Assembly (NCBI RefSeq): GCF_028335745.1
Contig: NZ_CP116477.1
Coordinates: forward strand, 3,968,001 to 4,032,000
From: Pectobacterium sp. A5351
GTDB taxonomy: Bacteria; Pseudomonadota; Gammaproteobacteria; Enterobacterales; Enterobacteriaceae
Direction: 5' to 3'
Length of the DNA: 64,000 nucleotides
Made by a program: the position numbers and the translations under genes. Every line of letters starts with the position of its first letter. Position 1 is the first letter of the stretch. Positions 5,863 through 56,545 of this stretch are shown piece by piece. Below the pieces are notes generated by a model. It was given only the letters and a program-made list of their open reading frames with translations. It did not search any database and was not told the DNA's origin.

Positions 5863-6413
5863 TAATCCAGCTCGACCGGCACGGGGTAGTCCTGCAACTT
5901 GGCGGCTCCGCCCAACGTCTCACGAATCGTGGCCGAATAGAGCGTGGTTTCCATGCCACCAACAAGGTTATCCAGTTCGCTAAATGCAAAGCGTAACGAA
6001 CGATTGTACGCCCAATCCTCCAATGAAGTCAGACGATACGTGAAGTACACCACCGTCAATTCCTGGTTCACGCGATCGATTTTCTCAATACGACTTACCT
6101 GCATACGGCCGTAGCACAGGTCACCATATTGACGCCAATTCTTCTCTCCTACAGGGGATAAACGATAGACTTTACCTGTTCCTTCAAGCGTCTCATGCAC
6201 CAACTTTGCTTCCACTAGCGCATTCAAACGTCCACTGTTCCAGGGGGAATCACCTTTAGGACTATGAACCGGCCACTACTTCTCGCCCAGACACAGCGGC
6301 GGTTCTGCATAAAAAAACTCCTGTACGCGTTGCTGGTAATCCTGCTCACTGAGCTGCGCCCATGCCCCGAGGGGCGACAATAGGCCGAACACGATTAATA
6401 CCAATGTTTTCAT
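5859..6413 (-). pseudogene. Exported protein of unknown function, interrupted by amber stop
   Basis: Starting at ATG 6413, the frame encodes a signal peptide (MKTLVLIVFGLLSPLGAWAQ) and SEQDYQQRVQEFFYAEPPLC. It then hits TAG at 6278-6276 (codon 46) and continues in frame to 5859 with SPKGDSPWNSGRLNALVEA. The total is 185 codons. The start overlaps the stop of the CarG-like gene by four bases (ATGA), so it is the third gene of that operon. The intact frame beyond the stop suggests a recent nonsense mutation, a sequencing error or suppression. I do not recognise the family; a weak recollection places such proteins beside CarG-like proteins. Confidence 0.7.
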
Positions 6414-6943
6414 TTTTCCAGCATCGCCTCATTCACTTCCTTGTAGGCCTCATCGACCGATTGGTAGGTATTTTGCGTTACCACACGCTTGCGCTCCGAC
6501 CATTCATAGAGCGGCACTCCAGGATCGTCCCGCGAGGCTTTAAAATCGTAAATCGTTAAAATGACTTTTGTCGAATCAAAGACATTTTCCCCTTGCTTCT
6601 TTGCCGTCACCAGAAAGTAATGCTTCCCAGACAAGAACAACCGATTATCCTGCACCAGAAAATCCGCGGCGGCGGACAACCGATAGTCGAACCAGGTAAA
6701 CGTATTGCTGTTGGCAACTGGCATGATGCTATGCCCACCGTCTGGACGGCGGACAAAAAAAGTCATCCCGAGATTAGGGTGTGAGGTATTGTTGTCAAAT
6801 TGGGCGACGACGACATAATCTTTCCCGCCGTCCTGATTGAGATCCACCCGATTGATGCCGTCTTTCAACGCCACGGGAGAGAGTGCAGCAGCCGAACTAC
6901 CGATCGCGCAGAGCGCCAACCACCCTATAACTTTATTGACCAT
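6410..6943 (-). CDS. Exported CarG-like protein (carbapenem self-resistance family, tentative)
   Basis: A 177-residue protein with a short signal peptide (MVNKVIGWLALCAIGSSAAA) and a mature domain. The domain contains DGINRVDLNQDGGKDYVVV, QFDNNTSHPN and FTWFDYRLSAAADF. The DLNQDG and HPN features resemble what I remember of the CarG family, the periplasmic proteins that protect Pectobacterium carotovorum against its own carbapenem. No carbapenem biosynthetic genes (carA-E) are in the window, so any such role here is unproven. The ATG at 6943 is preferred over the in-frame TTG at 6946. It overlaps the upstream SUMF1-like gene by 11 bases and the downstream gene by 4, giving a tightly coupled operon. 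Confidence 0.65.
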   Translation of the reverse strand: MVNKVIGWLALCAIGSSAAALSPVALKDGINRVDLNQDGGKDYVVVAQFDNNTSHPNLGMTFFVRRPDGGHSIMPVANSNTFTWFDYRLSAAADFLVQDNRLFLSGKHYFLVTAKKQGENVFDSTKVILTIYDFKASRDDPGVPLYEWSERKRVVTQNTYQSVDEAYKEVNEAMLEK

Positions 6944-7832
6944 CAAGTGTCCTTACTAGTCGAAAACCAATATCCGGCATGAAAAAACCGGGCGTGTGAA
7001 GATCGCAGCTCGCCAGACTGTGCGTCCGCTCGAGATAACTTCCGCCGCAAAAGTAGTACATGGTTTTGCCCCCCTCCACCACATAAGGTTCGTTCAGCCA
7101 CTCGGATACATTACCGCTCATATCGTAAATCCCCAGAGCGTTAGGGCGCTTCGACGCCACAGGCACCGTGCCGAACGAGGATGAATCAGAGGGGAAATGC
7201 GCCACACTCTCCGGCTGTTCGCTGCCAGCATAGCGCTGACCGTAAGTAGCATTCGCGAGTCCTTTCTTTCCGCCTCTGGCCGCAATCTGCCATTCCGCCA
7301 GCGTGGGCAAGCGATAGCCTGAAGCCTGCGGATTCTCGCGTATGAGTTTTTCATTATCACCGTCCGGCGCACGCTTCAGCGTTTTGCCGTCTGCCGCCAG
7401 ATAGTGAGGTTGCAGCCGTTCCCGTTCACTCAGCGCATTGGCGAAAATCACAGCATCCCACCATGAGATATTGGTGACAGGATGAAGGCCGCCATCCTGT
7501 TCAGGCGGCAGGCAATCTTCGAAGGTCGCACCATTGCAACCACCGCTTAGCTGATAGTCGTGTGCGTCCGCCCATGCTTGCAACGCATGGTATTGCTGAT
7601 AGGTGATTTCCGTTTTCGTCATGGCAAAAGACACGACAGAGGTGTTGGCATGGGCGGCATAGTCTTCCGAGCCAAAGACCGATCCAACATAGAAATGACC
7701 ACCGTTGACGACGACTTCGGTCATGCCCGTTGCCTTAACATCAGTAACAGGAAGAGACGCGCTAGTGGCGGTGATAAACGATAGTCCTAAACACAAGCCT
7801 AAAAAGATAAAACAGCTCTTAAACATAACCAT
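6933..7832 (-). CDS. Exported formylglycine-generating-enzyme-like (SUMF1/EgtB/PvdO) protein
   Basis: The protein starts MVMFKSCFIFLGLCLGLSF, a signal peptide, and has ~299 residues. The FGE-sulfatase fold is recognisable by VVNGGHFYVGS, VTNISWWDAVIFANALSER, YRLPTLAEWQIAARGG, IYDMSGNVSEWLNE and PDIGFRLVR. Members include the formylglycine-generating enzyme, PvdO and catalytically inactive accessory proteins. Without a sulfatase nearby, the substrate is unknown. The frame is open upstream to 7970, but the signal peptide argues for a start at 7832 or 7826, even though no good Shine-Dalgarno is visible. It is first in an operon with the CarG-like gene and the interrupted exported protein. Confidence 0.8.
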   Translation of the reverse strand: MVMFKSCFIFLGLCLGLSFITATSASLPVTDVKATGMTEVVVNGGHFYVGSVFGSEDYAAHANTSVVSFAMTKTEITYQQYHALQAWADAHDYQLSGGCNGATFEDCLPPEQDGGLHPVTNISWWDAVIFANALSERERLQPHYLAADGKTLKRAPDGDNEKLIRENPQASGYRLPTLAEWQIAARGGKKGLANATYGQRYAGSEQPESVAHFPSDSSSFGTVPVASKRPNALGIYDMSGNVSEWLNEPYVVEGGKTMYYFCGGSYLERTHSLASCDLHTPGFFMPDIGFRLVRTLDGQ

Positions 7833-11383: not shown

Positions 11384-13129
11384 TTACTTTTTGTCCTGAG
11401 GTTTAACCGCAAGCGCGTCCACAATCACCCGGAACAGGTCAGTGTTTTCCATGTAACCACGGATACGTTCTGCACCTGGACCGCTAGCCTGAATGACCAT
11501 ATCGTCAACGGCATGAACGCCCGTATCGGAAGAGCGTGGCAGAATCCCTTCGCGGAATACCGCACCTTCCACTTTTTCGTAGGCTTTGTTGGCAACGTAT
11601 TCATCTTTTTCGTTCTTGATAGCAGGAACGAACTGGCCATCCAGCTTCGGACGGAACGTTTCGTAATAATCAGGGAAGTTGTTGAAGAACACGGCCAGAC
11701 GCTTAGAAACATTCAGGTCATCCGGGTAGCCGTCTTTGTTGGCGTCTTTATAGTTCGGATAGCCTGCATCTTCATACACACCGACTTTCTCACGCATCTC
11801 GGTACCCGGCTTGCTGTCATCTACCGTACCGATGATAGACAGGCCGTGCGTATGGTCGCCCGCCACGATAATCATCGTATCCGGGTTTTTCTCGGCGAAT
11901 TTCTTCGCGATAGCCACAGACTGATCCAGCATGATGGTGTTAGTAAACGCGCGCTCCCAATCCAGCGGGTGAGAGGCTTTGTCGATCAGCGCGGATTCTA
12001 CCATCAGGAAGAAACCGTCTTTGTTTTTGGACAGCACATCCAGCGCCGCCTGTGTCATTTCAGTCAGGTCAGGCTGGTTAGGGAATTTCTTGGCGACATC
12101 GTTTTTCAGGAAACGACGATCCATCACGCCATCCATGTTGCCGGTGTGGAACAGCCCCAGCAGCTTGGTGGCCTGCGCCGCGTTTTTCTTCAGTGAATCC
12201 GCATCAGTCACCAATGAGTAGCCAGCTTGCTGGAATTTCTCAACGTAGTTGGTTTCGTCTTTACGTTTTGATCCCGGCGTGCTTTTCGGCAGGAAGTAGG
12301 CAGAGCCGCCACCCAGCATGACGGTAGGCTGCACGTTGTAGAACATCTCAACGATTTCAGCTTTATCCGCACGACGACGAGTATGAGAGACGACCGCCGC
12401 TGGCGTAGCATCCTGAAGTTCAGCATCGCTGACGACGCCGACAGACATCTTGGTCGAACGGGTTAACAGCTCACCCAGCGTTTCCTGCTTCGGGTGCTCC
12501 AGTGAATTTTTGCTACGGCTGACGTACACACCCAGCGCATTCACACCGGATTTGTGACCGGTCATGTAAGCGCTCATGGTGTTGGCGCTGTCGGCCGCGA
12601 TGGAGTCGGTACTGGACGTACCGGCAAACGCCATATATTGCAGGTCATCAATCGCCAGACGCCCGTCTGCCTTGCCTTCCGTCACCCCTTTGGACAGGAT
12701 ACGTGCGCCAGTGCGGTGCGCAACGGACAGGCCATCGCCGATGAACAGAATCACGTTTTTGGCTTTACGCGTACCGGACGCGGAATAAACGTCCCAGCTC
12801 ACCTGTGTTTTTTTGCCTTTAGCTTCTGCTTCGACGACATATTTGCCTGCTTCTGGCAGGTTTACGTCTCGCAGCCAGATCGTGGAGGCATTGCCGCCGT
12901 CTTCACGCTCAACAAACGAGGCCGTTTTGCCCAGCACCTGCTGGTAATCCTTGCCGTTGATCAGAATGCGGATATCTTCCGGCTTGAGTACTTCATCAAA
13001 CTCGACTTTAAAATCGAATTTCCCGCCCGCCAACATGGTGGCGCGGTCAATGGGATAAATAGCCTGAGCCTGCACCATCCCCGGTAAAGCAGTAGAAATC
13101 AGTAAAGGCAGTAACCAGCGAGCTTTCAT
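11384..13129 (-). CDS. Periplasmic alkaline phosphatase
   Basis: A 581-residue secreted enzyme that hydrolyses phosphate monoesters using zinc and magnesium. The signal peptide is MKARWLLPLLISTALPGMVQ. The first ~100 mature residues look like an added beta-sandwich domain. The phosphatase core starts at KNVILFIGDGLS (metal-binding Asp), has the nucleophile in DSIAADSANTMSAYMTG, and has metal ligands in FLMVESALIDKASHP, IIVAGDHTHG and DTGVHAVDDM. It is longer than E. coli PhoA (471) and closer to the Vibrio/Pseudomonas type. The gene heads a probable operon with the exported protein and ABC transporter. A 9-bp inverted repeat spans its ribosome-binding site. Confidence 0.93.
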   Translation of the reverse strand: MKARWLLPLLISTALPGMVQAQAIYPIDRATMLAGGKFDFKVEFDEVLKPEDIRILINGKDYQQVLGKTASFVEREDGGNASTIWLRDVNLPEAGKYVVEAEAKGKKTQVSWDVYSASGTRKAKNVILFIGDGLSVAHRTGARILSKGVTEGKADGRLAIDDLQYMAFAGTSSTDSIAADSANTMSAYMTGHKSGVNALGVYVSRSKNSLEHPKQETLGELLTRSTKMSVGVVSDAELQDATPAAVVSHTRRRADKAEIVEMFYNVQPTVMLGGGSAYFLPKSTPGSKRKDETNYVEKFQQAGYSLVTDADSLKKNAAQATKLLGLFHTGNMDGVMDRRFLKNDVAKKFPNQPDLTEMTQAALDVLSKNKDGFFLMVESALIDKASHPLDWERAFTNTIMLDQSVAIAKKFAEKNPDTMIIVAGDHTHGLSIIGTVDDSKPGTEMREKVGVYEDAGYPNYKDANKDGYPDDLNVSKRLAVFFNNFPDYYETFRPKLDGQFVPAIKNEKDEYVANKAYEKVEGAVFREGILPRSSDTGVHAVDDMVIQASGPGAERIRGYMENTDLFRVIVDALAVKPQDKK

Positions 13130-47154: not shown

Positions 47155-48150
47155 TTAAAGGCTTTCGCCGTCCAGCAGAGTAAATCCGACATCGATCATA
47201 TCCAGTGAGACTGGCTCGCCCCGCAGACGAGCCAGCAAACGTTCGGTGCCGACACGCCCCATGTGCTCACGCGGCGTCAATACGCTAGCCAACTTCGGCA
47301 CCATCGCCTGACCGATGTCGTGCCCGTGAAAACCCGCGACGCCGATATCTTCCGGCACACGCAATCCCTGCCGCTGGCATTCAAACATCGCGCCGACGGC
47401 TAAATCGTCATTAGTACAAAATACGCTATCGACCTGCGGGTATTCCTCCTGCGTCTGCCGCAGCAGTTCGCCACCAAGTGAATAGGAAGAGGCTCGCTCG
47501 CTCATCACGCAATAGCTCTTGAGCCCGCTTTCCCACATCGCTTGTTCATAGCCCCGGCAGCGCATGATCGTACGCTCATCCTGCCGCGCCCCGAGATAAA
47601 CGATATGGCTGTGCCCCAGTGCGACCATACGCAGCGTCATCTGGCGGGCGGCTTCAACATTATCAAATCCGACGGCCATATCCAGGCAGGGCGAAACAGA
47701 ATCCATCAGTTCCACCACCGGAATGCCGGCGACGTCCAGCATCTGACGCGTTCGCGGCGTGTGGGTACGTTCAGCCAGAATCAGCCCATCGATGTGATAC
47801 GACAGCAGTGAAGTCAGGCGCTGCTCTTCTCTGTCAGGATGATAGCCATAGTGCGCCAGCATGGTCTGGTAGCCGTGCGCTTCCGCCGTGTGTTCAATCC
47901 CGCGTAATACCTCAGCGAAAACCTGATTGGTTAATGACGGCAACAGCACCCCAATCGCCCGACTGGTGGAACTGGCAAGCATATTCGGCGCGAGATTGGG
48001 AATATAGCCCAGCTCATCCAATGCAATAGCGATCTTTTCCTGCAACGCGGCTGACACCTGCGCAGGATTACGCAAATAGCGGCTTACCGTCATTTTGGTA
48101 ATCCCAACGCGGTCAGCAACATCCTGGAGAACGGGTCTTTTCTTCTTCAT
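47155..48150 (-). CDS. gntR: Gluconate operon repressor GntR (LacI family)
   Basis: A 331-residue LacI-family regulator with N-terminal helix-turn-helix PVLQDVADRVGITKMTVSRY, hinge LGYIPNLAPNMLAS, and a sugar-binding-protein-like core (IGVLLPSLTNQVFAEVLRGI, VFCTNDDLAVGAMFECQRQG, GVAGFHGHDIGQAMVPKLAS). It matches E. coli GntR, which is released from DNA by gluconate. Its likely targets are the two operators at 46544-46573. It is transcribed convergently to gntK. Confidence 0.93.
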   Translation of the reverse strand: MKKKRPVLQDVADRVGITKMTVSRYLRNPAQVSAALQEKIAIALDELGYIPNLAPNMLASSTSRAIGVLLPSLTNQVFAEVLRGIEHTAEAHGYQTMLAHYGYHPDREEQRLTSLLSYHIDGLILAERTHTPRTRQMLDVAGIPVVELMDSVSPCLDMAVGFDNVEAARQMTLRMVALGHSHIVYLGARQDERTIMRCRGYEQAMWESGLKSYCVMSERASSYSLGGELLRQTQEEYPQVDSVFCTNDDLAVGAMFECQRQGLRVPEDIGVAGFHGHDIGQAMVPKLASVLTPREHMGRVGTERLLARLRGEPVSLDMIDVGFTLLDGESL

Positions 48151-48257
48151 CGTCGACTAAAAATGCCTGAAAAACAGTAAGCTAAGTCTAGCAAAAAAAG
48201 CATGAAGAAAGTAAAGGCAAAGGGGCAGAATCTGCATGATAACGTGAGGTTTTTAAG

Positions 48258-48292
48258 AAAATAAAAAGCCTGCGTCTTTCCTACGCAGGCTT
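48258..48292 (-). terminator. Intrinsic terminator after yhhW
   Basis: On the minus strand AAGCCTGCGTAGG - GACGCAGGCTTTTTATTTT forms a strong stem with a T-rich tail. Confidence 0.85.
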
Positions 48293-48314
48293 CTGTGTGA
48301 TGACTTAGCCATTG

Positions 48315-49010
48315 TTATACTGGCGGCAAATCAAACAGCAGGATTTCGCTGTCCTCACTGGCGTGGACGGAGATCGCCGTTTCGTCCCAGACCGCAAACG
48401 CATCGCTGGTTTCCGCTTTCTGGCCGTTAATCTCTACCGTACCGCGCACCACCTGCACCCAGACGCGGCGTTCAGCCTGAATCTGATACACCGATTGCTC
48501 CTGCGCTTTCAGCGCCCAACGCCACAACGTCATGTCCTGAAAGACTTTCAGCGAGCCTTCACGCGCATCCGGGGACAGCACCAGTTGACGCCCTTGCTGC
48601 ACATCAAAGCGCTTCTGCTCGTAGCGCGGCGTCAGCCCAGTTTTTTCCGGGATAATCCAGATTTGATACAGGTGCAGCGGTTCGTCTTTGCTGGCATTGT
48701 ATTCAGAGTGACGAATGCCCGTGCCTGCACTCATAATCTGGAATTCACCCGCTGGCACCTGCTCTTTATTTCCCATGCTATCCTGATGTTCAACCGCACC
48801 GGACAATACATAGGTCAGAATTTCCATATCTTTATGCGGGTGTGTGCCAAAGCCCTGACCACCTTCGATAACGTCTTCATTAATCACACGCAGTGCCGAA
48901 AATCCCATGAAATCAGGATCGTAATAATCGGCGAATGAGAACGTGTGCCAGCTGTCGAGCCAGCCGTGATTCGCATGTCCGCGATCTTGCGCTTGACGTA
49001 AATAGATCAT
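48315..49010 (-). CDS. yhhW: Pirin-family bicupin (quercetin dioxygenase-like) YhhW
   Basis: A 231-residue cytoplasmic bicupin of the pirin family; the E. coli homologue has quercetin 2,3-dioxygenase activity in vitro. The metal site is GFGTHPHKDMEILTYVLSG (two His) with a further His and Glu in GTGIRHSEYN. The protein is full length. It lies next to ryhB and near gntR as in E. coli, which supports orthology. The physiological substrate is not known. An imperfect hairpin, CACC-CTGTTC / GAACAG-GGTG, occurs upstream near 49081-49112. Confidence 0.92.
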   Translation of the reverse strand: MIYLRQAQDRGHANHGWLDSWHTFSFADYYDPDFMGFSALRVINEDVIEGGQGFGTHPHKDMEILTYVLSGAVEHQDSMGNKEQVPAGEFQIMSAGTGIRHSEYNASKDEPLHLYQIWIIPEKTGLTPRYEQKRFDVQQGRQLVLSPDAREGSLKVFQDMTLWRWALKAQEQSVYQIQAERRVWVQVVRGTVEINGQKAETSDAFAVWDETAISVHASEDSEILLFDLPPV

Positions 49011-49131
49011 GTTATTTCCTCCCGCGTTTTTGATAAGGAAAGTGTAACGGGCGGTGGTAAATAAGATAGCGCAAAAAACTCACCGCTCTGTTCGAAAAAT
49101 CAGAACAGGGTGAAGGGTAAAAAAGGAAGGC

Positions 49132-49270
49132 AAAAAAAAAAGCCAGCACCCGAGCTGGCTAAATAATACTGGAAGCAATGTGAGCAATGTCGTGCCTTCA
49201 CAGGGAAGCCGAATCGTCATGAACACCATCAATAACTAACACAGGCGCATGACATCGTTCCCCGGAACGC
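49132..49270 (-). ncRNA. ryhB: RyhB iron-stress small RNA, extended 5' part
   Basis: On the minus strand the RyhB target-pairing core appears: CACGACATTGCTCACATTGC followed by TTCCAGTATTA. Next comes the terminator stem TAGCCAGC / GCTGGCTTTTTTTTT, ending near 49132. I place the start near 49270, about seven bases after a TATTAT -10 box (49282-49277) that lies inside a Fur box. This gives ~139 nt against ~90 in E. coli; the extra length lies 5' of the core and contains its own hairpin (CGTTCC / GGAACG). RyhB, with Hfq, represses mRNAs of iron-using proteins when iron is scarce. The 5' end is predicted, not measured. Confidence 0.88.
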
Positions 49271-49275
49271 ACAGC

Positions 49276-49294
49276 AATAATAATCATTATCATT
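49276..49294 (-). promoter_or_regulatory. Fur box overlapping the ryhB promoter
   Basis: On the minus strand AATGATAATGATTATTATT closely matches the 19-bp Fur box GATAATGATAATCATTATC and covers the predicted -10 element. Confidence 0.85.
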
Positions 49295-49406
49295 CGCACT
49301 TGTAAAGTGCTTTTTGCGATAAATTCTTATTCTCAATACGAGTCGAAGGATTACTTGCAGGGATCTCCAAACCTGACTTCCCACTCTCATCCAATGAGTT
49401 CATCAG

Positions 49407-50606
49407 CTAGGAAGACTGAACCTGATGAATAGAACCAGATAATGACACCTGTCGATATGCCAACACCGACGAGTACAATGCCAACAGGCAACAGCAAAAT
49501 GAGAAAAGGAACATAGCAGGATAGCCAAAAACAGAAACTATGATGCCCCCGATAAATCCAGAAAATAAAATGCCAATATCAAAGCAAGATTCATAGGTAC
49601 TGAGAGCAAGACCGAGATGCTCTTCCGGCATACTTTTTAAAGCAGGAAGAGCGAGCAACGGATATACCATAGATAAACCAAATCCTGTAAGGAAAGAACC
49701 CAGCATTGCCTCATACGGATGGGATGATAAGCCGATCAACAACAGACCTACCGCCTCAATTGTCAGTGAGAATAGAGTCATTTTTAACCCCGAACTGTCA
49801 GCCTTCCAACCAAGAGTCAGCCTCGAAATAACATAGCCCACGCCAAAAAGAGCAAGCGCAACAGCCGAATCTTCTCCCCAGTCATTCTGTATGAAATAAA
49901 GAACTAAAAAAGTGGTAATAGAGGCATAACCAATATTAGCTAATGAAAAACCAGATCCGGCTTTCCATATTCTTTTAACAGCAAATAATAGTGTCGCGTG
50001 TGTCTTATTCGGATGCACAGCTACAGGCTTGACGATTAAAACGATAATAAACCCTAGGGCGGGTAAAATCGTCATTATAATCGCGGATAGGGTGATCCCA
50101 GTGTGATAATAAGACCATATGCCAAAATAATTACCAATAGCTAATCCAAGAAACATTGCTATTCCAACCCAAGACATAATTTTACCTGCATGCTCCCTTC
50201 CAACCAAGCCAATCGGCCAAGTGCCACTACAGGTAAAAATAAGACTCTCACCTATTCCCATCAATATACGTGAAATAATTATTACAGCAAAAACCGCTTT
50301 TCCTGGGTCCAGAAATGCAAATGATAGATAGCATAATAAACCAGAAAAAACAGTTAAAAATAAACCTACCACCATCCCTTTCCTCGGGCCATGATTATCA
50401 GAATATCGACCAGCGAGCGCACGTGATAGCAAGGTGGACACAGACTCAACCGCAACCACAAGACCAACATAAAATGCAGAATACTCAAGCACTTTATTAA
50501 CATATAAAGGAAGGATTGCCAGTGACAACCCTAGGCTGACAATAGCTAAAAATAGTATACTTGCAACACAGATCGCAGCAATAATATTATTTTTTATCTT
50601 GTACAT
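49407..50606 (-). CDS. MFS exporter of the island operon
   Basis: A 399-residue major facilitator protein with twelve hydrophobic segments. The conserved loop after helix 2 is RYSDNHGPRKGMVVG, and RILMGIGESLIFTCSGTWP lies in helix 4. The best start is ATG 50606 (MYKIKNNIIAAICV), which has AAGGA seven bases upstream; ATG 50621 is in frame. It overlaps the formyltransferase gene by 20 bases and is the last of six coupled genes. Similar drug/arabinose-type MFS proteins export small molecules, so it probably exports the cluster's product and gives self-protection. Base composition is AT-rich like the rest of the island. Confidence 0.87.
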   Translation of the reverse strand: MYKIKNNIIAAICVASILFLAIVSLGLSLAILPLYVNKVLEYSAFYVGLVVAVESVSTLLSRALAGRYSDNHGPRKGMVVGLFLTVFSGLLCYLSFAFLDPGKAVFAVIIISRILMGIGESLIFTCSGTWPIGLVGREHAGKIMSWVGIAMFLGLAIGNYFGIWSYYHTGITLSAIIMTILPALGFIIVLIVKPVAVHPNKTHATLLFAVKRIWKAGSGFSLANIGYASITTFLVLYFIQNDWGEDSAVALALFGVGYVISRLTLGWKADSSGLKMTLFSLTIEAVGLLLIGLSSHPYEAMLGSFLTGFGLSMVYPLLALPALKSMPEEHLGLALSTYESCFDIGILFSGFIGGIIVSVFGYPAMFLFSFCCCLLALYSSVLAYRQVSLSGSIHQVQSS

Positions 50607-51216
50607 CGGCATATCCTTCATAGCTAACTCTATTATTCACTATTTTTATTTTCCCATCCAAAAAAGCACGAATGGCGTTATATATCATTTTCTTTTCGGC
50701 CTCGACAATACTCTCTCGAAGCTGAGATTCGCTCATCCCATTAGTGATCCTAACAGGCTCTTGATCAATTATTGGACCAGCGTCAACGTCTTCATTAATA
50801 AAATGCAACGTTGCCCCAGTCACTCTCAACCCTGCTTGCAACGCTTTAAGTTGCGCTTTATCGCCAGGAAAAGCAGGGAGAAGTGATGGATGCGTGTTCA
50901 TTGTTTTGTCACCAAATCTCTCGACAAATTCGGGAGAAAAAATTCGTCTAAAACCGCCTAAAATAATCAAATCAACTTTTTCTTCTATTAATTTTTCCGC
51001 AATTTTTTCTTCAAAATCACATCGATTTTTATAATCATGATGAGTTATTTTTGTAACTGCAACACCGTCGAAAATAGGTTTACCCTCAGGAGAAAAATCT
51101 CGGTTATTTGTTAAGACAAGGCTCAACTTTGCCTGAGAGTCCGTATCCTTGATAGCATCTTGCACAGAGGTTAAAAGACTTCCTCTCCCTGAAAACAAAA
51201 AAGCGATGCTTTTCAT
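50587..51216 (-). CDS. PurN-like formyltransferase
   Basis: A 209-residue protein with the fold of glycinamide ribonucleotide transformylase. The catalytic triad region is present: Asn and His in MNTHPSLLPAFPGDKAQ and Asp in VTGATLHFINEDVDAGPII. The N-terminal loop reads FSGRGSLLTSV instead of the usual SGNGSNLQ, and the folate-side segment is LGGFRRIFSPEFVERF. These changes suggest a different acceptor from GAR. The start ATG overlaps the amidohydrolase stop by four bases. It probably formylates an amine of the pathway intermediate using 10-formyl-tetrahydrofolate. A housekeeping PurN duty is unlikely given its place in an accessory operon. Confidence 0.8.
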   Translation of the reverse strand: MKSIAFLFSGRGSLLTSVQDAIKDTDSQAKLSLVLTNNRDFSPEGKPIFDGVAVTKITHHDYKNRCDFEEKIAEKLIEEKVDLIILGGFRRIFSPEFVERFGDKTMNTHPSLLPAFPGDKAQLKALQAGLRVTGATLHFINEDVDAGPIIDQEPVRITNGMSESQLRESIVEAEKKMIYNAIRAFLDGKIKIVNNRVSYEGYADVQDKK

Positions 51217-52502
51217 ATTATGATCTTCCTTCTAATTTCAGAAAATTTTTCGTTGTTACCTTCTAAAACAGGGTCTATAAATTGACCATTATCCAGGCGA
51301 ATGTCGCCATTCACGATTACTTTACAGGGATTCTCATAGTGCAACATTTTCAGTAATGAAATAGGTGTATTGATATAATCAACATCGATGCATGTCTTAT
51401 CAAAGAAAATAAGATCTGCTTTAAAACCACGAGCAATTCTACCCACATTCATTAGACCAAGAGACTTCGCTCCCCCTTCTGTAATCATATGAAGAATTTT
51501 TCCAGCATCTACTTTCGTGTCAAAATTGGCATCACCATGATGGTATAAGGCAAAAAGCGCGTCAAAAGTAAGATCATTTCCAGGATTAACCATTGCAGCA
51601 TCGGTACCAAGCCCTAGGTCCAGATGAGACGAGAGCCGACGTAATGGTAAAGTGCCTGCGCCAACAAAACTATTACTTACTGGGCAATGGATAATATGAC
51701 ATTGTGTTGATAACAGAATATCTAGCTCACTATCTGATAGATGGCAACAGTGAATAAGCGTTGTATGTTTATCAAGAATACCCAAGCGAGCAAAACGCTC
51801 AATGCCGCTCACACCAAATATATTTCGGTGAGAATCAACCTGATATGCTCCCTCATGAATATGAAGAGTAAACTTTTTTTGATGGTGATTAGCAAGCTGG
51901 TGTAATTTTTTAAGTAAAATGTCATCGGCAGAAAGTTCAGATGCGGTAGCCGGTAGAATAGTAATTAATTCTGACTGGTATTTTTCCTCAGCAAGAAGGT
52001 ATTTATAAAAAATTGTTTCAACACTTTCATTTTCTGGGCCTTTACCATTACCTACCCACTGATTACTCTGACAAAAATTTATTACACACCGACTTTTCAC
52101 CTGTTGTATTGCACGTATATCACTTTCAATTCGGCTTGTAAAAATACCAACTGTTGTTATACCTTTCTTCATAGCCATCATTAATGATTTAAGCGAAGCA
52201 ACATACTGACCTTCAGCGTCCTCCAGCGTATTATTTCGATGCACAGAATCAAGCACCACATCAATAGGGGATGCATCTAAGATGCTTCCATAAATCTCTT
52301 TACTAGGGTGAAGGTGAGCATTGACAAGCCCAGGTAAGACGACGAATTGTTCTGATGGTATAATTACTCCTTCGACATCACCCTTCCTCTTTTCGCCTAC
52401 GTAAGTTATCACGTCCCCCATCATCGAGATATCCCCTTGAACTAACTTCATTGAAGTCGAATCAAGGTAACTTATATCCCTAAAGATAAATTCTTTATCC
52501 AT
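51213..52502 (-). CDS. TrzA/MtaD-type amidohydrolase (nucleobase/nucleoside deaminase-like)
   Basis: A 429-residue member of the amidohydrolase superfamily. Metal ligands are visible in LPGLVNAHLHPSKE (HxH), LHIHEGAYQVD, TTLIHCCHLS and LGLGTDAAMVNPGNDLTFDA. The last pattern is typical of the deaminase branch that includes S-adenosylhomocysteine/methylthioadenosine deaminases, cytosine/guanine deaminases and TrzA. The substrate cannot be assigned; a pyrimidine or purine amino group is the reasonable guess. ATG 52502 (MDKEFIFRDISY) overlaps the HAD stop by eight bases. The upstream frame extension is discarded. Confidence 0.83.
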   Translation of the reverse strand: MDKEFIFRDISYLDSTSMKLVQGDISMMGDVITYVGEKRKGDVEGVIIPSEQFVVLPGLVNAHLHPSKEIYGSILDASPIDVVLDSVHRNNTLEDAEGQYVASLKSLMMAMKKGITTVGIFTSRIESDIRAIQQVKSRCVINFCQSNQWVGNGKGPENESVETIFYKYLLAEEKYQSELITILPATASELSADDILLKKLHQLANHHQKKFTLHIHEGAYQVDSHRNIFGVSGIERFARLGILDKHTTLIHCCHLSDSELDILLSTQCHIIHCPVSNSFVGAGTLPLRRLSSHLDLGLGTDAAMVNPGNDLTFDALFALYHHGDANFDTKVDAGKILHMITEGGAKSLGLMNVGRIARGFKADLIFFDKTCIDVDYINTPISLLKMLHYENPCKVIVNGDIRLDNGQFIDPVLEGNNEKFSEIRRKIII

Positions 52503-53169
52503 TGGTGAGTTCCATAAGTGTTTTTTTAATAGGTTGAAACGAATCAAAATCACTATAATGTAGTGTTTTCATCCCCAGTTTTTTACAAGGGAGAATATCG
52601 TTATTAATACTATCCCCTATCATAATGGCATTTTCGGGTTGCACATTAAAATCCAGAAGAATTCTTGTGAAGAAATGAACATCAGGCTTACAGTCAGGAT
52701 AACGATTTCCAAAATAAAAACGACTAAAGAATGGCAAAATATTAGTATGTATAAGCTTTCGGCGCTGGACAGATTCCATACCATTACTACATATCACCAA
52801 AGGAAACCTAGAGCTTAACTGTTTAAGTAAAGGAAGCCAGTCACTGTTCAATGCACAATTTTCTACATATGCATTCCAATATGTTTCTTCAATAATTTCA
52901 TAATCAGAATCTTTAACACCGAACCAATCATATATATAGATAAATCGCTTTTTTAATAATGTAGCAATATCAATTTCACCAAATTCAAACTTTGACCAAA
53001 GTGTATGGTTTCGCGCCTCATAGCTGCAAATGAATTCACTAAAGTCATACAGAGCATCAGCATAATTTAGACGAATCATTAGACCCGAGATTCTCTGTAT
53101 AGCCTGATAAGCCCCAGTTTTATGGTCCACGAGCGTATCATCAATATCAAATAAAATTAATTTAATCAC
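52495..53169 (-). CDS. HAD-superfamily phosphatase (YjjG-like)
   Basis: A 224-residue haloacid-dehalogenase-type hydrolase with all four motifs: LILFDIDDTLVDH (nucleophile and acid Asp), VICSNGMESV, the Lys in DCKPDVHFF and IMIGDSINNDILPC. The helical cap (NHTLWSKFEFGEIDIATLL) resembles that of the nucleotidase YjjG. A nucleoside-monophosphate phosphatase role fits the cluster. The start is GTG 53169 (VIKLILFDIDD), overlapping the DUF84 stop by eight bases with AAAGGTAAG upstream; an ATG further upstream would overlap deeply and is rejected. Confidence 0.85.
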   Translation of the reverse strand: MIKLILFDIDDTLVDHKTGAYQAIQRISGLMIRLNYADALYDFSEFICSYEARNHTLWSKFEFGEIDIATLLKKRFIYIYDWFGVKDSDYEIIEETYWNAYVENCALNSDWLPLLKQLSSRFPLVICSNGMESVQRRKLIHTNILPFFSRFYFGNRYPDCKPDVHFFTRILLDFNVQPENAIMIGDSINNDILPCKKLGMKTLHYSDFDSFQPIKKTLMELTNG

Positions 53170-53719
53170 CCATCTTACCTTTCTCAAGAGCAAGTGAGCC
53201 AAATGCACATTTCAACGCGGTTTCAAACTCATGAACTCGTGTATAAAGCCCATTGGTGAGCACGCCATTGGTGCCAAGCCTATCCATATCTGCTTTTGAT
53301 ATATGTGGGTATAGATTAAGAACTACATCCGATAATCGGATATATTTTGAAAGCTTTTCCATTACATCTTCAGGTAACATGACTTTGCCACTACAACCAT
53401 AGTGATATTTATTTTTTTTCGTATCTTTAATAACCGCCCATCCATAAACAAAACTGCCAAAAGAGGTTTTTTCCGTTAGCCCCTCCAGAGCAATAATATA
53501 ATCAACATGATAATTGATGTCGCTCTCAAGATTATCAATGCGTGTATAGCATCCCTTTATAGCTTCGTCATCAGTTTCAGGTGTTTCGCTTACACCAGAA
53601 GAGACTATATGATGACTAAGCGTGAAGTTCGGGAAAAGACTACTACATATATTCTGCGTAGATGATATTTTCGCTTCGTTATTTGAAGCCAAAATAATAG
53701 TGACATTTTTATTCTGCAT
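53162..53719 (-). CDS. DUF84-family (YjjX-like) nucleoside triphosphatase
   Basis: About 185 residues resembling E. coli YjjX, the inosine/xanthosine triphosphatase. The N-terminal strand-loop VTIILASNNEAKISSTQNI, SSGVSETPETDDEAIKGCYT, YIIALEGLTEKTSFGSFVYG and the C-terminal LGTNGVLTNGLYTR are family blocks. In YjjX the Glu of AIEAGI helps bind metal; here it is ALEGLT. ATG 53719 or 53725 may be the start, both overlapping the previous gene. In this operon it may hydrolyse a modified or non-canonical nucleoside triphosphate, either as a pathway step or as protection of the cell. Confidence 0.82.
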   Translation of the reverse strand: MQNKNVTIILASNNEAKISSTQNICSSLFPNFTLSHHIVSSGVSETPETDDEAIKGCYTRIDNLESDINYHVDYIIALEGLTEKTSFGSFVYGWAVIKDTKKNKYHYGCSGKVMLPEDVMEKLSKYIRLSDVVLNLYPHISKADMDRLGTNGVLTNGLYTRVHEFETALKCAFGSLALEKGKMGD

Positions 53720-54578
53720 GAGCATGAATCCATTTCATAACGGTAGTATTTTCATTGCCTGTCAAAATATCTGACAACGTTTCGCTTGCTGACTCAATAG
53801 CAGGCATTCTCGTTATAGAAGTATAATCAGAAAAATTTTCTATAGCTTCACATGCTTTTGAAATATTCTTATCATATATTTGGGTAAACGTTGTTTTCAT
53901 TATAGTATATCCCAAATCAAGATTTTTAACTCCATTTTCAATCAAATCTTTCCAAACCAACTCGTGAATAAAAGAGAAAAAACCCATGTCGTATGGAAGA
54001 CCTGTAATTACATCTGTACTACGGGATATTGTTTCACAGAATAATTTATTATTTTTTATATAAAATTGCATTCCAAGTGTACATGGGAAATCCTTTGTGT
54101 CAGATTTATGGTAATTTTGGTTTATATTTATAATCGCTCTTCTTGAATCCCTATTTTTAAGTAAAACACTTTTCACCCAATTATACTGATTACCATATGA
54201 CTCAACCGCCTCATAAAAAACATAGTATCCATAATTAGAATTTACATTCCCATCTTCATCTACAAGTGTCATCCAAAATTTGGATGCTTTTGCAAGCCCA
54301 GTTTCAGCTTTAAGGTTCCCACTGAAATAAGCCAAAAACTCACGAGAAAGATACTTTATTGCCCCATCACGAAGATGATGAAGCCGGTTACGTGGATCTT
54401 TAAGTATATAATTTACCCCATAGGACTGTAATGCATTACCCGCTCTGGATGAAATTCGCTTTCCAGAAGTTTGAATATGATAAATTCCTTTTTTTACAAG
54501 CTCATCCACAGAAGAGCCGCTAATGGTCACAAAATCCTGAATCTCTGAAGAGGTGTTTTCTGCAATATCAAAGCTCAT
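53709..54578 (-). CDS. Thymidylate-synthase-like nucleotide hydroxymethylase (candidate)
   Basis: A 289-residue thymidylate-synthase-fold protein. Residues that line up with E. coli ThyA are Glu80 (ThyA E58, in REFLAYFSG), Arg146-Arg147 (R126/R127, NRDSRRAIININ), catalytic Cys166 (C146, DFPCTLGMQF), Arg186-Ser and Asp189 (R166, D169, ETISRSTDVI). The spacing is exactly conserved. At the position of Asn177, which reads uracil, this protein has Asp197 (TGLPYDMGFF). The Trp of YGKQW is replaced in YGYYVFYE, and His147 is Thr. Asn-to-Asp at this site is known from dCMP hydroxymethylase and MilA (CMP hydroxymethylase). The start ATG 54578 has AAGGAGAG five bases upstream. It is the first main gene of a six-gene overlapping operon. 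Confidence 0.85.
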   Translation of the reverse strand: MSFDIAENTSSEIQDFVTISGSSVDELVKKGIYHIQTSGKRISSRAGNALQSYGVNYILKDPRNRLHHLRDGAIKYLSREFLAYFSGNLKAETGLAKASKFWMTLVDEDGNVNSNYGYYVFYEAVESYGNQYNWVKSVLLKNRDSRRAIININQNYHKSDTKDFPCTLGMQFYIKNNKLFCETISRSTDVITGLPYDMGFFSFIHELVWKDLIENGVKNLDLGYTIMKTTFTQIYDKNISKACEAIENFSDYTSITRMPAIESASETLSDILTGNENTTVMKWIHAHAE

Positions 54579-54765
54579 GTTCTCTCCTTGTATCATAAAG
54601 CTTATATATCCGTAGTACGTCACCCTGTTCCCCAACTCCCCAACGAATTACTGGCACAGGCACTTGGAGAATGCTGCTGTGTAGATCGAGCACTTTAGAA
54701 TGAAGTAATATTTCAAAAACTGGAATAACGCTTAATAAGATATGTTCAAAAATAATTTTTATCAA
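54568..54765 (-). CDS. Possible small leader ORF ahead of the island operon
   Basis: A 65-codon frame starting with TTG and ending with a stop that overlaps the start of the thymidylate-synthase-like gene by 11 bases. The product is MIKIIFEHILLSVIPVFEIL followed by SSILQVPVPVIRWGVGEQGD and KLYDTRREHEL. The overlap would couple translation. There is no ATG and no clear Shine-Dalgarno for the TTG, and I recognise no family. It could instead be the remnant of a longer gene or chance. Confidence 0.3.
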   Translation of the reverse strand: MIKIIFEHILLSVIPVFEILLHSKVLDLHSSILQVPVPVIRWGVGEQGDVLRIYKLYDTRREHEL

Positions 54766-55106
54766 ATGTTTTCTAAATATTAATTAAGTGAAAATAAAAA
54801 ATTAGATAAAGATACACACATTAGAACTATAATAATTACACTATGAATAATTAGGAATACATAAATAATAAAATATAACTATTCCTCTACCATACCTTAA
54901 GTAATTCTATTCACATAAAAAAACCAATAAACTTACTTAGATCACCCCCCTGCACAATTTATTGATTTAAATGATATTTTCATAACTTCCCGCGAAAAGA
55001 GGCACATATACGGACATCGAGTAGCGCAGCAATAAAATATACAATTAATGTAGGAGAGGTAAATGATCACACCATTGTTTATATGTTCAAGTTAATGAAT
55101 CACGTC

Positions 55107-55122
55107 ACTTACCATGGTAAGT
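55107..55122. repeat. Perfect 16-bp palindrome
   Basis: ACTTACCATGGTAAGT is its own reverse complement, about 530 bp upstream of the island operon start. It may be an operator. Confidence 0.6.
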
Positions 55123-55145
55123 CGTTAGCTTATTAAAATATAGTT

Positions 55146-55204
55146 TTATACGCTAAATTCCGAGGAAAGCAGAAAGAGAGAAATTCGAATTATTTAGCGT
55201 ATAA
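55146..55204. repeat. 59-bp segment with 12-bp terminal inverted repeats
   Basis: TTATACGCTAAA (55146-55157) and TTTAGCGTATAA (55193-55204) are perfect inverted copies enclosing 35 bases. Confidence 0.6.
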
Positions 55205-55287
55205 CACGCCTTGAGGGTACTTTATTTTTAAAATAATGTGATTGAAATAAATAAGATAAGTCGCTATTACGTGAGCTTTTTATGTTT

Positions 55288-55320
55288 CGTGTTTCCGAGC
55301 GTTAAACGTTCGGAAACACG
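55288..55320. terminator. Long hairpin just after glpC
   Basis: CGTGTTTCCGAGCGTT and AACGTTCGGAAACACG pair with one mismatch. It lies 14 bases beyond the glpC stop and so may end glpABC transcripts, although no T run follows on the minus strand. Confidence 0.5.
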
Positions 55321-55333
55321 TTACTGCAGATTG

Positions 55334-56545
55334 CTACTCTGGCTGCGCTAATGACCTCGCCAACAGCGTGATCGGATGTTCACACCGTTTGCTGGTCGAC
55401 ATCTCAATCTGCCACTTACAGGTTTCGCAGTCCGTCACCACAATATCGACCCCGCTTTCTTCAATCTGCTGGAACAGCGGTGCGCCAATGCCTTGCGACG
55501 TGGCGTAATTCTCTTTCTTGAAGCCGTAGGTGCCCGCAATACCGCAGCACTGGGAGTCCAGCATCACCAGTTCAAGACCGGGGATGCGTTGCAGCAGCGC
55601 CAGGGTATACGCTGTCCACCCCATCCTCTCCAGATGGCAAGGGGTATGGTACGCCACCCGCAGCGGCAATTTACGCAGCGGCAGCGTTCTCCCCTCTTCT
55701 TCCAGCAGGCGATAGAGCTGGCGCGTCACCAGTTCGATACCCTCGCGCACGTGGCCGTTATCCACGCCCAGCAGATGCGGGTACTCGTCCCGTAGCGTGA
55801 ACGTACAGCTGGATGAGGTCGCCACCACCGGCAGGGATTTTTGATTAATCGCCTCATCCAGCGACGTAATGTTGGCGCGCGCCTGCTTTCTGGCCTTGTC
55901 GTGAAAACCATTGGCGATCAGCGGTACGCCGCAGCACTTCTCTTTATTCAGCAACTGCACACCAATACCCATCGCGTTAAAGACCTGCACCAGATCTTTA
56001 CCCAACTGTGGATGGTTGTAGTTCACATAGCAGCCGTGGAAGTAAGCCACCTGCTCATCATAGGCCTGCTGCTTTGCCGCCTGCTGACGATACCAGCGCC
56101 GGAAGGTGCCGAACGAATATTTCGGCAACTGGCGACGGTGGTCGATTTTCAACGCCTTATCCAGCAATTGGCGCACCGGCTTCAGGCTGGTAGCCGTATT
56201 GACCAGCGGCGCAAACGGTGTGGCAATCGATCCCATGAGGTCGGTATGGCTCAGAATCGCGTCGCGCAACGTCGGCTTGTGGCTGTTGTGCGTGGCTTTC
56301 GCACGCTGAATAATGTCGCCAATTTTGACATCCGACGGGCACGCGACTTCGCAGCGCTTGCAGTTGGTGCAGTATTTCAGCGCATCATCATACAGCGCCG
56401 GGTCTTTACGCCGCAGGCGTTCGCCGTCCGGGCCAGCCTGTTTCGGGCCGGGATAAATCGGGTTCACACGCGACACCGGACAGTACGTGGTACAGACCGT
56501 ACACTTGATACAATCTTCAAAACTGTTATCGCTAAGCAGGTTCAT
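55334..56545 (-). CDS. glpC: Anaerobic glycerol-3-phosphate dehydrogenase subunit C
   Basis: A 403-residue iron-sulfur membrane-anchor subunit that passes electrons from GlpAB to menaquinone. Two 4Fe-4S motifs are CIKCTVCTTYCP and CTNCKRCEVACP, followed by two CCG-type domains (NKEKCCGVPLIANGF, LDSQCCGIAGTYGF). The start ATG 56545 (MNLLSDNSFEDCIKC) has GGAGGG upstream and overlaps the glpB stop by four bases (ATGA). It is the last gene of glpABC and its 3' side borders the AT-rich island. Confidence 0.96.
   Translation of the reverse strand: MNLLSDNSFEDCIKCTVCTTYCPVSRVNPIYPGPKQAGPDGERLRRKDPALYDDALKYCTNCKRCEVACPSDVKIGDIIQRAKATHNSHKPTLRDAILSHTDLMGSIATPFAPLVNTATSLKPVRQLLDKALKIDHRRQLPKYSFGTFRRWYRQQAAKQQAYDEQVAYFHGCYVNYNHPQLGKDLVQVFNAMGIGVQLLNKEKCCGVPLIANGFHDKARKQARANITSLDEAINQKSLPVVATSSSCTFTLRDEYPHLLGVDNGHVREGIELVTRQLYRLLEEEGRTLPLRKLPLRVAYHTPCHLERMGWTAYTLALLQRIPGLELVMLDSQCCGIAGTYGFKKENYATSQGIGAPLFQQIEESGVDIVVTDCETCKWQIEMSTSKRCEHPITLLARSLAQPE

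Follow-up and report, generated by a model that had tools for sequence, protein, structure and literature searches.

What do six overlapping genes that stand between glpC and the small RNA gene ryhB make in the plant-rotting bacterium Pectobacterium sp. A5351? The window, meaning the whole stretch of DNA analysed here (64,000 nt; NZ_CP116477.1, 3,968,001-4,032,000), carries these genes as an operon on the minus strand, and all six open reading frames (ORFs) are intact and full length in its ORF list. We consider it moderately likely that they form a mobile cassette for an exported, 5-hydroxymethyl-cytidine-derived metabolite of nucleoside type, probably an antimetabolite. The first gene encodes a thymidylate-synthase-family (TS-like) protein of 289 amino acids, a predicted cytidylate 5-hydroxymethylase (53709..54578; Pfam Thymidylat_synt, 62.8 bits). 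It is followed by a DUF84/NTPase_I-T protein, predicted to hydrolyse (deoxy)cytidine triphosphate ((d)CTP) or a hydroxymethylated triphosphate (53162..53719; PF01931, 114.7 bits, cut-off 25), and by a YjjG-like HAD phosphatase with a GTG start, a predicted 5'-nucleotidase that is optional across operons (52495..53169; Hydrolase, 67.4 bits). The remaining genes encode a TrzA/MtaD-type amidohydrolase, a predicted nucleoside or base aminohydrolase (51213..52502; Amidohydro_1, 125 bits), a PurN-like formyltransferase with an altered acceptor site (50587..51216; Formyl_trans_N, 136.9 bits), and an MFS transporter, presumably an exporter (49407..50606; MFS_1, 144.3 bits).

The order and the family assignments given in the first-pass annotation agree with Pfam, which places all six proteins above its cut-offs. 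Its overlaps of 11, 8, 8, 4 and 20 bases were reproduced from starts read off the sequence (ATG at 54578, preceded by AAGGAGA, and at 53719, GTG at 53169, ATG at 52502, 51216 and 50606); several genes have alternative in-frame starts, and overlap sizes depend on the starts chosen. With homologous ATG codons, the 11-base overlap of the TS-like and DUF84 genes was found again in all eight other enterobacterial loci measured, not counting the second Pectobacterium genome described below (G405), and the 4-base overlap of the amidohydrolase and formyltransferase genes in seven out of seven. Because the same overlaps recur in these loci, they are not due to chance. In Thermoactinomycetaceae the TS-like and DUF84 genes do not overlap and are separated by 18-19 bases (3/3).

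The predicted product of the first gene carries the residues of cytidylate hydroxymethylases and not those of a deoxyuridine monophosphate (dUMP) methylase. The signature of the group of T4 deoxycytidine monophosphate (dCMP) hydroxymethylase (dCH) and MilA of mildiomycin biosynthesis, as given in PMC6400193, includes an Asp three residues before the Cys, a Ser-x-Tyr motif and an Asp at position 179. Among the 120 homologues listed out of 292 matches, the first two occur in all 120 and the third in 119, and the published cytidylate 5-hydroxymethylase residues are together retained in 118. An ordinary thymidylate synthase (ThyA) was considered and rejected: the Asn177 that meets dUMP in ThyA is replaced by Asp in 119 listed homologues, Leu143 before the catalytic Cys by Asp in all 120, and His147 by Thr in 116. 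Housekeeping copies were likewise discarded, the genome having separate genes with ThyA residues and for PurN and YjjX. The first-pass prediction of a hydroxymethylase in place of an ordinary dUMP methylase is thus borne out at the residue level. The best sequence match of the family profile in PDB is T4 dCMP hydroxymethylase, gp42 (E 7.1e-21), whereas the predicted structural model is closest to MilA, with the MilA-like fold including its C-terminal part; the structure searches used a second-look aligner only, and a family missing from its list is not thereby excluded. Hydroxymethylation of cytidine monophosphate (CMP) at C5 is therefore a predicted reaction that signature residues and model strongly support.

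The six genes also co-occur outside the species, as the first-pass annotation had asked, in fetched enterobacterial loci and in protein listings. In nine out of ten further enterobacterial loci fetched, the TS-like, DUF84, amidohydrolase and MFS genes are present in that order. The formyltransferase gene was found in eight of these nine operons and the HAD gene in four. All six genes are present in Erwinia persicina (L007), Ewingella americana (L011) and Pectobacterium G405. The HAD gene is lacking in Trabulsiella (L008), Edwardsiella anguillarum (L009) and plasmids L003 and L004, and the Salmonella plasmid L005 lacks both HAD and formyltransferase genes. The idea of a fixed six-gene set therefore fell, since HAD is absent from five of nine operons and the formyltransferase from one, and in Thermoactinomycetaceae the genes are divided between two loci. 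Upstream of the operon, a divergent LysR-like gene is present in L004, L007 and L011 (Pfam was run for L004 alone). In L009 the operon lies between direct repeats of 300 nt (6164-6463 and 12707-13006, 99% identical) within duplicated pieces of neighbouring genes, as if it had arrived by recombination or duplication. The tenth locus, on a conjugative Salmonella plasmid (L006, 7926-8569), contains only pieces of the MFS gene, possibly the relic of a lost operon.

Protein listings extend this distribution to Enterobacterales, Burkholderia, Pseudomonas, Vibrio, Pasteurellaceae, Bradyrhizobium and Bacilli, with named sources that include Pectobacterium, Xenorhabdus, Salmonella, E. coli, Pantoea, Mannheimia, Chelonobacter, Bacillus, Lysinibacillus and Thermoactinomycetaceae. 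The family of the amidohydrolase stands clearly apart: its 67 listed clusters have at least 36% identity and E values no worse than 6e-75, and the next match is at E 4e-26, in a catalogue search that scored only 7,998 candidates; the 67 listed clusters of the formyltransferase family are set off by a smaller gap (E 2e-40 to 3e-36). Co-location was assessed indirectly, by pairing clusters whose longest contigs have exactly equal size. The input comprised 78 or 68 of 120 listed TS rows (292 matches), 67 of 120 listed amidohydrolase rows (173 matches) and 67 of 120 listed formyltransferase rows (223 matches). Among listed rows, 29 amidohydrolase clusters pair with a formyltransferase, 21 with a TS-like protein and 14 with both. 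The other 53 rows of the amidohydrolase and formyltransferase listings served as controls, less two formyltransferase rows that lack a contig (leaving 51), and none in either set pairs. Seven amidohydrolase/TS contigs, some of them short, have no formyltransferase contig of equal size.

A profile scan of 84,980 species genomes, which used exact-word patterns, gives a lower bound and left out near relatives of the window, found at least 14 TS-like loci; eight of these 14 genomes also possess the amidohydrolase family. At E 1e-50, one genome of 394 in the order had a match, and it is that of the window. A search of viral contigs for the amidohydrolase, queried with a single Xenorhabdus protein, found no relative. 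The genes travel together as a horizontally spread operon with modular partners.

In Pectobacterium, comparison with 23 of the 25 genomes examined shows the cassette to be a clean insertion. The ryhB gene and the 3' end of glpC share one contig in all 25; their spacing is 44-173 bp in 23, 6,000 bp in the window's genome and 5,830 bp in G405, and only these last two possess the TS-like gene. Five empty sites were fetched. In four of them the homology breaks off at 55331, where glpC stops, and picks up again at 49340, which is 67 bp past the MFS stop; in the fifth the limits are 55335 and 49343. By these homology end points the insertion spans 49341..55330, that is 6.0 kb, the operon plus about 750 bp upstream. 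The GC content is 36-39% in both 2 kb steps inside the operon and 51-59% in 27 of the 28 steps of the window outside 48001-56000. The G405 cassette proteins are 93-98% identical to those of the window, its flank past ryhB differs, and the region from about 54877 to 55031 has no counterpart there. Since protein listings also name P. colocasium, P. parvum, P. carotovorum, P. polaris and P. brasiliense, the cassette occurs in Pectobacterium strains more widely than the 25 genomes indicate.

The AT-rich stretch upstream (54579..55330) arrived with the operon and no gene was found in it: no ORF of at least 100 amino acids is listed wholly within it, Rfam gave no known RNA or riboswitch upstream of the operon at E values up to 1, and three promoter-like matches were counted against 3.5 expected by chance. 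No integrase gene occurs among the ORFs inside the insertion. Outside the cassette, ryhB serves as the flanking landmark (49134..49199, minus strand; RF00057, 88.9 bits), and the insertion now sits directly upstream of it. A second ryhB-like match lies elsewhere in all 25 Pectobacterium genomes (G000:C2:1956130-1956192).

Plasmids carry compact versions of the operon. The E. coli plasmid pSTEC2018_553-f (5,698 bp) has five annotated genes, for the TS-like, DUF84, amidohydrolase, formyltransferase and MFS proteins, and a ColE1-type RNAI (RF00106, 74.3 bits); its record is given as linear with an incomplete gene table, to which the ORF list adds only a 77-codon frame. Because such a plasmid carries little else, the cassette may well benefit its carrier, for example by way of an antimetabolite. 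Related operons are on plasmids typed IncK2/Z (E. coli) and IncFII,IncK2/Z (Salmonella). By a near-identity search the two E. coli versions occur in one and two of 5,426 E. coli genomes, always on a plasmid, and the window's own DNA has no near match in these genomes. The TS-like protein gave four matches at E 1e-20 in 72,556 plasmid records.

The DUF84 protein scores 67.2 bits with the equivalog model for the inosine/xanthosine triphosphatase YjjX (NF003459), below the cut-off of 175, whereas the genome's own YjjX scores 277.5 bits. Eight TS-like loci of at least 46% identity, L015-L020 and the viral-collection contigs L021 and L022, have no amidohydrolase nearby. In six of them (L015, L016, L017, L020, L021 and L022) the TS-like gene has a NUDIX-type neighbour that overlaps it; Pfam was run on L017 and NCBIfam on three loci, and the rest were judged by visible similarity. 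In the three loci run with NCBIfam a pyrimidine (deoxy)nucleoside triphosphate diphosphatase model (NF007834) is among the two best matches, below its cut-off. Only one of the six, L016, has a record titled Dependentiae. Since two unrelated nucleoside triphosphate hydrolases couple to one hydroxymethylase clade, hydrolysis of cytidine triphosphate is suggested to be part of the job. The triphosphatase would either supply the monophosphate or keep a modified triphosphate out of nucleic acid. The pairing with a triphosphatase is shared with T4, besides all signature residues; we take gp56 to be the T4 partner that hydrolyses dCTP and supplies monophosphate to the hydroxymethylase.

Five of the NUDIX-linked TS-like proteins have a hydrophobic N-terminus resembling a signal peptide, three in metagenome-assembled genomes (L015, 902-1882; L016, 7923-8909; L017, 7917-8876) and two in viral-collection contigs (L021, 3605-4588; L022, 3814-4803). 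The Kyte-Doolittle value over 12 residues exceeds 2.0 in four of them and is 1.94 in L015; it is 0.87 in the window protein, and 23 of the 120 listed homologues pass the threshold of 2.0.

The HAD protein scores 99.5 bits with the YjjG pyrimidine nucleotidase model (TIGR02254), below the cut-off of 159.9. A YjjG above the cut-off is present in both hosts of chromosomal operons that lack HAD, in two of five enterobacterial hosts whose operon has it, and in none of three Thermoactinomycetaceae. These data are consistent with loss of the HAD gene where the host has YjjG, and are too few to claim it.

In the amidohydrolase, H63, H65, H214, E217, H251 and D301 are invariant in all 21 aligned sequences; we take this HxH, HxxE, His and Asp pattern to be the metal and catalytic motif of the MtaD/TrzA-branch deaminases. 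Its nearest folds include deaminases, and by family it may act as a deaminase, perhaps on a cytosine nucleoside. The formyltransferase passes the PurN (glycinamide ribonucleotide (GAR) transformylase) model TIGR00639 with 167.9 bits against a cut-off of 150.1, and its catalytic N107, H109 and D145 are invariant in 22 of 22 aligned sequences. In contrast to the genome's own PurN (266.2 bits), which has N, M, L and H at these positions, it possesses the family-invariant L14, R90, D119 and Q122. The GxGSN loop, presumably GAR-binding, is likewise not kept, with GRGSL in all 22 against GHGSN in the own PurN. An N-formylation step would fit the family. The MFS protein scores 402.9 bits with NF003477 (cut-off 374), a model named just 'MFS transporter', and export is its presumed direction.

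Acylating enzymes vary among the related clusters. Baia soyae, Thermoactinomyces sp. and Croceifilum oryzae have two loci each. The first contains TS-like, DUF84 and amidohydrolase genes, three ATP-grasp-like proteins, an MFS transporter and a LOG-like protein; in Baia, Pfam identifies two L-amino-acid-ligase types, one D-Ala-D-Ala-ligase type, MFS and Lysine_decarbox. The LOG-type protein is above the cut-off for Lysine_decarbox and below that of the cytokinin-riboside phosphoribohydrolase equivalog. The second locus (L043-L045) encodes a transporter (EamA in Baia), HAD, amidohydrolase, formyltransferase and an alpha/beta hydrolase. In the Salmonella plasmid L005, the only carbamoyltransferase case among the loci seen, a NodU-type carbamoyltransferase gene (6261-7826) precedes the TS-like gene. 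It is split into two ORFs, and the match of the upstream ORF to the start of the family is weak (E 0.079), so the gene may be broken or the sequence in error. A characterised carbamoyltransferase, probably from a phage, modifies the hydroxymethyl group of 5-hydroxymethyldeoxycytidine (5hmdC) and its triphosphate (5hmdCTP), and not the deoxyuridine counterpart 5hmdUTP (PMC8670742). Since that enzyme acts on the hydroxymethyl group, the hydroxymethyl oxygen is a possible acylation site.

The genes suggest the following route. The DUF84 protein would hydrolyse (d)CTP, a modified triphosphate or both, feeding monophosphate onward or guarding nucleic acid. The TS-like enzyme would put a hydroxymethyl group on C5 of CMP, ribo or deoxy, using methylene-tetrahydrofolate and water. 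The HAD protein may take off the phosphate, a role that would fall to a host nucleotidase in operons without HAD. The amidohydrolase may then hydrolyse an amino group on the nucleoside or base, either within the pathway or for self-protection. The PurN-like enzyme, as its family supports, would formylate the product, with other acylating enzymes in related clusters, and the MFS protein would export it.

Several observations weigh against this reading. In the 120 listed homologues, MilA Ala176 is replaced by Ser187 in all, MilA Lys133 by Arg146 in 119, and the sugar-contacting His216 of MilA and T4 dCH by Gln233 in all. The sugar, and perhaps the exact nucleotide, are uncertain because these residues replace those of MilA, of which Ala176 and Lys133 select ribose according to PMC5175136; Ser and Arg would favour activity on dCMP, whereas Gln in place of His216 would not. 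An N-formyl product fits ill with a cytosine that has already lost its amine, and deamination and formylation may therefore be wrongly ordered or have other roles; deamination before acylation is also disfavoured because the carbamoyltransferase of PMC8670742 rejects 5hmdUTP. The HAD-amidohydrolase-formyltransferase block of Thermoactinomycetaceae stands apart from TS-DUF84, and L018 and L019 have other neighbours, with neither an amidohydrolase nor a NUDIX partner. Six of the 14 scan genomes, all metagenome-assembled, have the TS-like gene and no amidohydrolase family. Four of eight plasmid records matched by DNA, from Salmonella, keep only an MFS piece, and in Dickeya oryzae (L010, 8001-9924) the HAD ORF is short and the TS ORF starts late, which suggests decay. 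A dedicated resistance gene was not recognised in the cassette.

The likeness to mildiomycin biosynthesis that the first-pass annotation had drawn stands at the level of the fold, MilA being the closest model, and fails at the CMP-selecting residues. Its view that the product could be an antimetabolite or a signal stays conjectural. Mildiomycin synthesis also has an N-glycosidase for hydroxymethyl-CMP (MilB), and none is found among the only six genes of the insertion; the DUF84, HAD, amidohydrolase and formyltransferase partners differ as well. BcmA of bacimethrin synthesis appears as a MilA homologue in the alignment figure of PMC5175136. Membership of the MilA/BcmA group is not claimed for the predicted enzyme, as the ribose-selecting residues of MilA and an N-glycosidase gene are absent. 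Gene-combination searches of the literature, in which subscription journals were thinly covered, found no description of the operon; PMC6385640 was rejected as one, as the search terms in it are unrelated prophage neighbours. We rate the operon as a variant within hydroxymethylcytidine-based natural-product biosynthesis.

A more specific proposal is tentative, and we would put it rather short of probable: a 'nucleoside microcin', in which a mobile cassette would draw on the cytidylate pool by means of a bacterial hydroxymethylase and turn it into an antimetabolite, derived from 5-hydroxymethyl-cytidine, for export, with a common TS-DUF84-amidohydrolase core and exchangeable acyl tailoring (formyl, carbamoyl or amino acid). 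Within the cassette reading, and overlapping with it, lies the somewhat unlikely case that the amidohydrolase is an immunity enzyme deaminating a toxic cytosine nucleoside, the acyl group being attached either to the amine of cytosine or to the hydroxymethyl oxygen. Enzymes that transfer formyl, carbamoyl or amino-acid groups vary around the core from cluster to cluster, as if acylating one common group; however, the Thermoactinomycetaceae block ties the amidohydrolase to the formyltransferase, which looks more like consecutive steps.

It is improbable that the operon, with its transporter as a permease, is catabolic or cleans house by breaking down or salvaging foreign or damaged pyrimidines. 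DUF84, YjjG-like HAD and amidohydrolase proteins are typical of nucleotide clean-up and nucleobase catabolism, and the name of the best MFS model leaves the direction open. Against this, a hydroxymethylase and a formyltransferase would use up two one-carbon units from folate, as a biosynthetic route does, and the amino-acid ligases and carbamoyltransferase of related clusters resemble tailoring enzymes.

Still less probable is a bacimethrin-type pyrimidine antivitamin, which would antagonise thiamin and be made from hydroxymethylated CMP once its sugar has been cleaved off. In the synthesis of mildiomycin and bacimethrin, 5-hydroxymethylcytosine is set free from hydroxymethyl-CMP (PMC4081090), and both the MilA-like fold and the LOG-type gene of the Thermoactinomycetaceae version would agree with such a route. 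The lack of the MilA ribose-selecting residues speaks against it, and no ORF of at least 100 amino acids in the insertion encodes an N-glycosidase or a methyltransferase, in contrast to the bacimethrin cluster.

Modification of the host's own DNA or RNA with 5-hydroxymethylcytosine and derivatives, as a defence or an epigenetic mark like phage hypermodification, is very improbable. In its favour, dCMP hydroxymethylases are mostly phage-borne (PMC6400193), and the carbamoyltransferase of PMC8670742 is likewise an acyl-transferring enzyme beside a cytidylate hydroxymethylase, recalling the split gene before the L005 operon. But those genes serve phage DNA modification whereas the window has a formyltransferase, the triphosphatase, nucleotidase and exporter would drain modified nucleotide from polymerases, and the six Pfam assignments include no kinase and no enzyme that acts on nucleic acids.

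If the cassette reading is true, small plasmids of Gram-negative bacteria would direct the synthesis of a nucleoside natural product that starts from the hydroxymethylation of cytidylate, a reaction which in antibiotic synthesis is otherwise known from mildiomycin and bacimethrin. With five or six genes, the system is compact enough for complete reconstitution in vitro. A clade of proteins that public records name 'thymidylate synthase', 'inosine/xanthosine triphosphatase' and 'phosphoribosylglycinamide formyltransferase' would also gain a function, and would provide natural variants for studying how TS-fold enzymes choose between ribose and deoxyribose.

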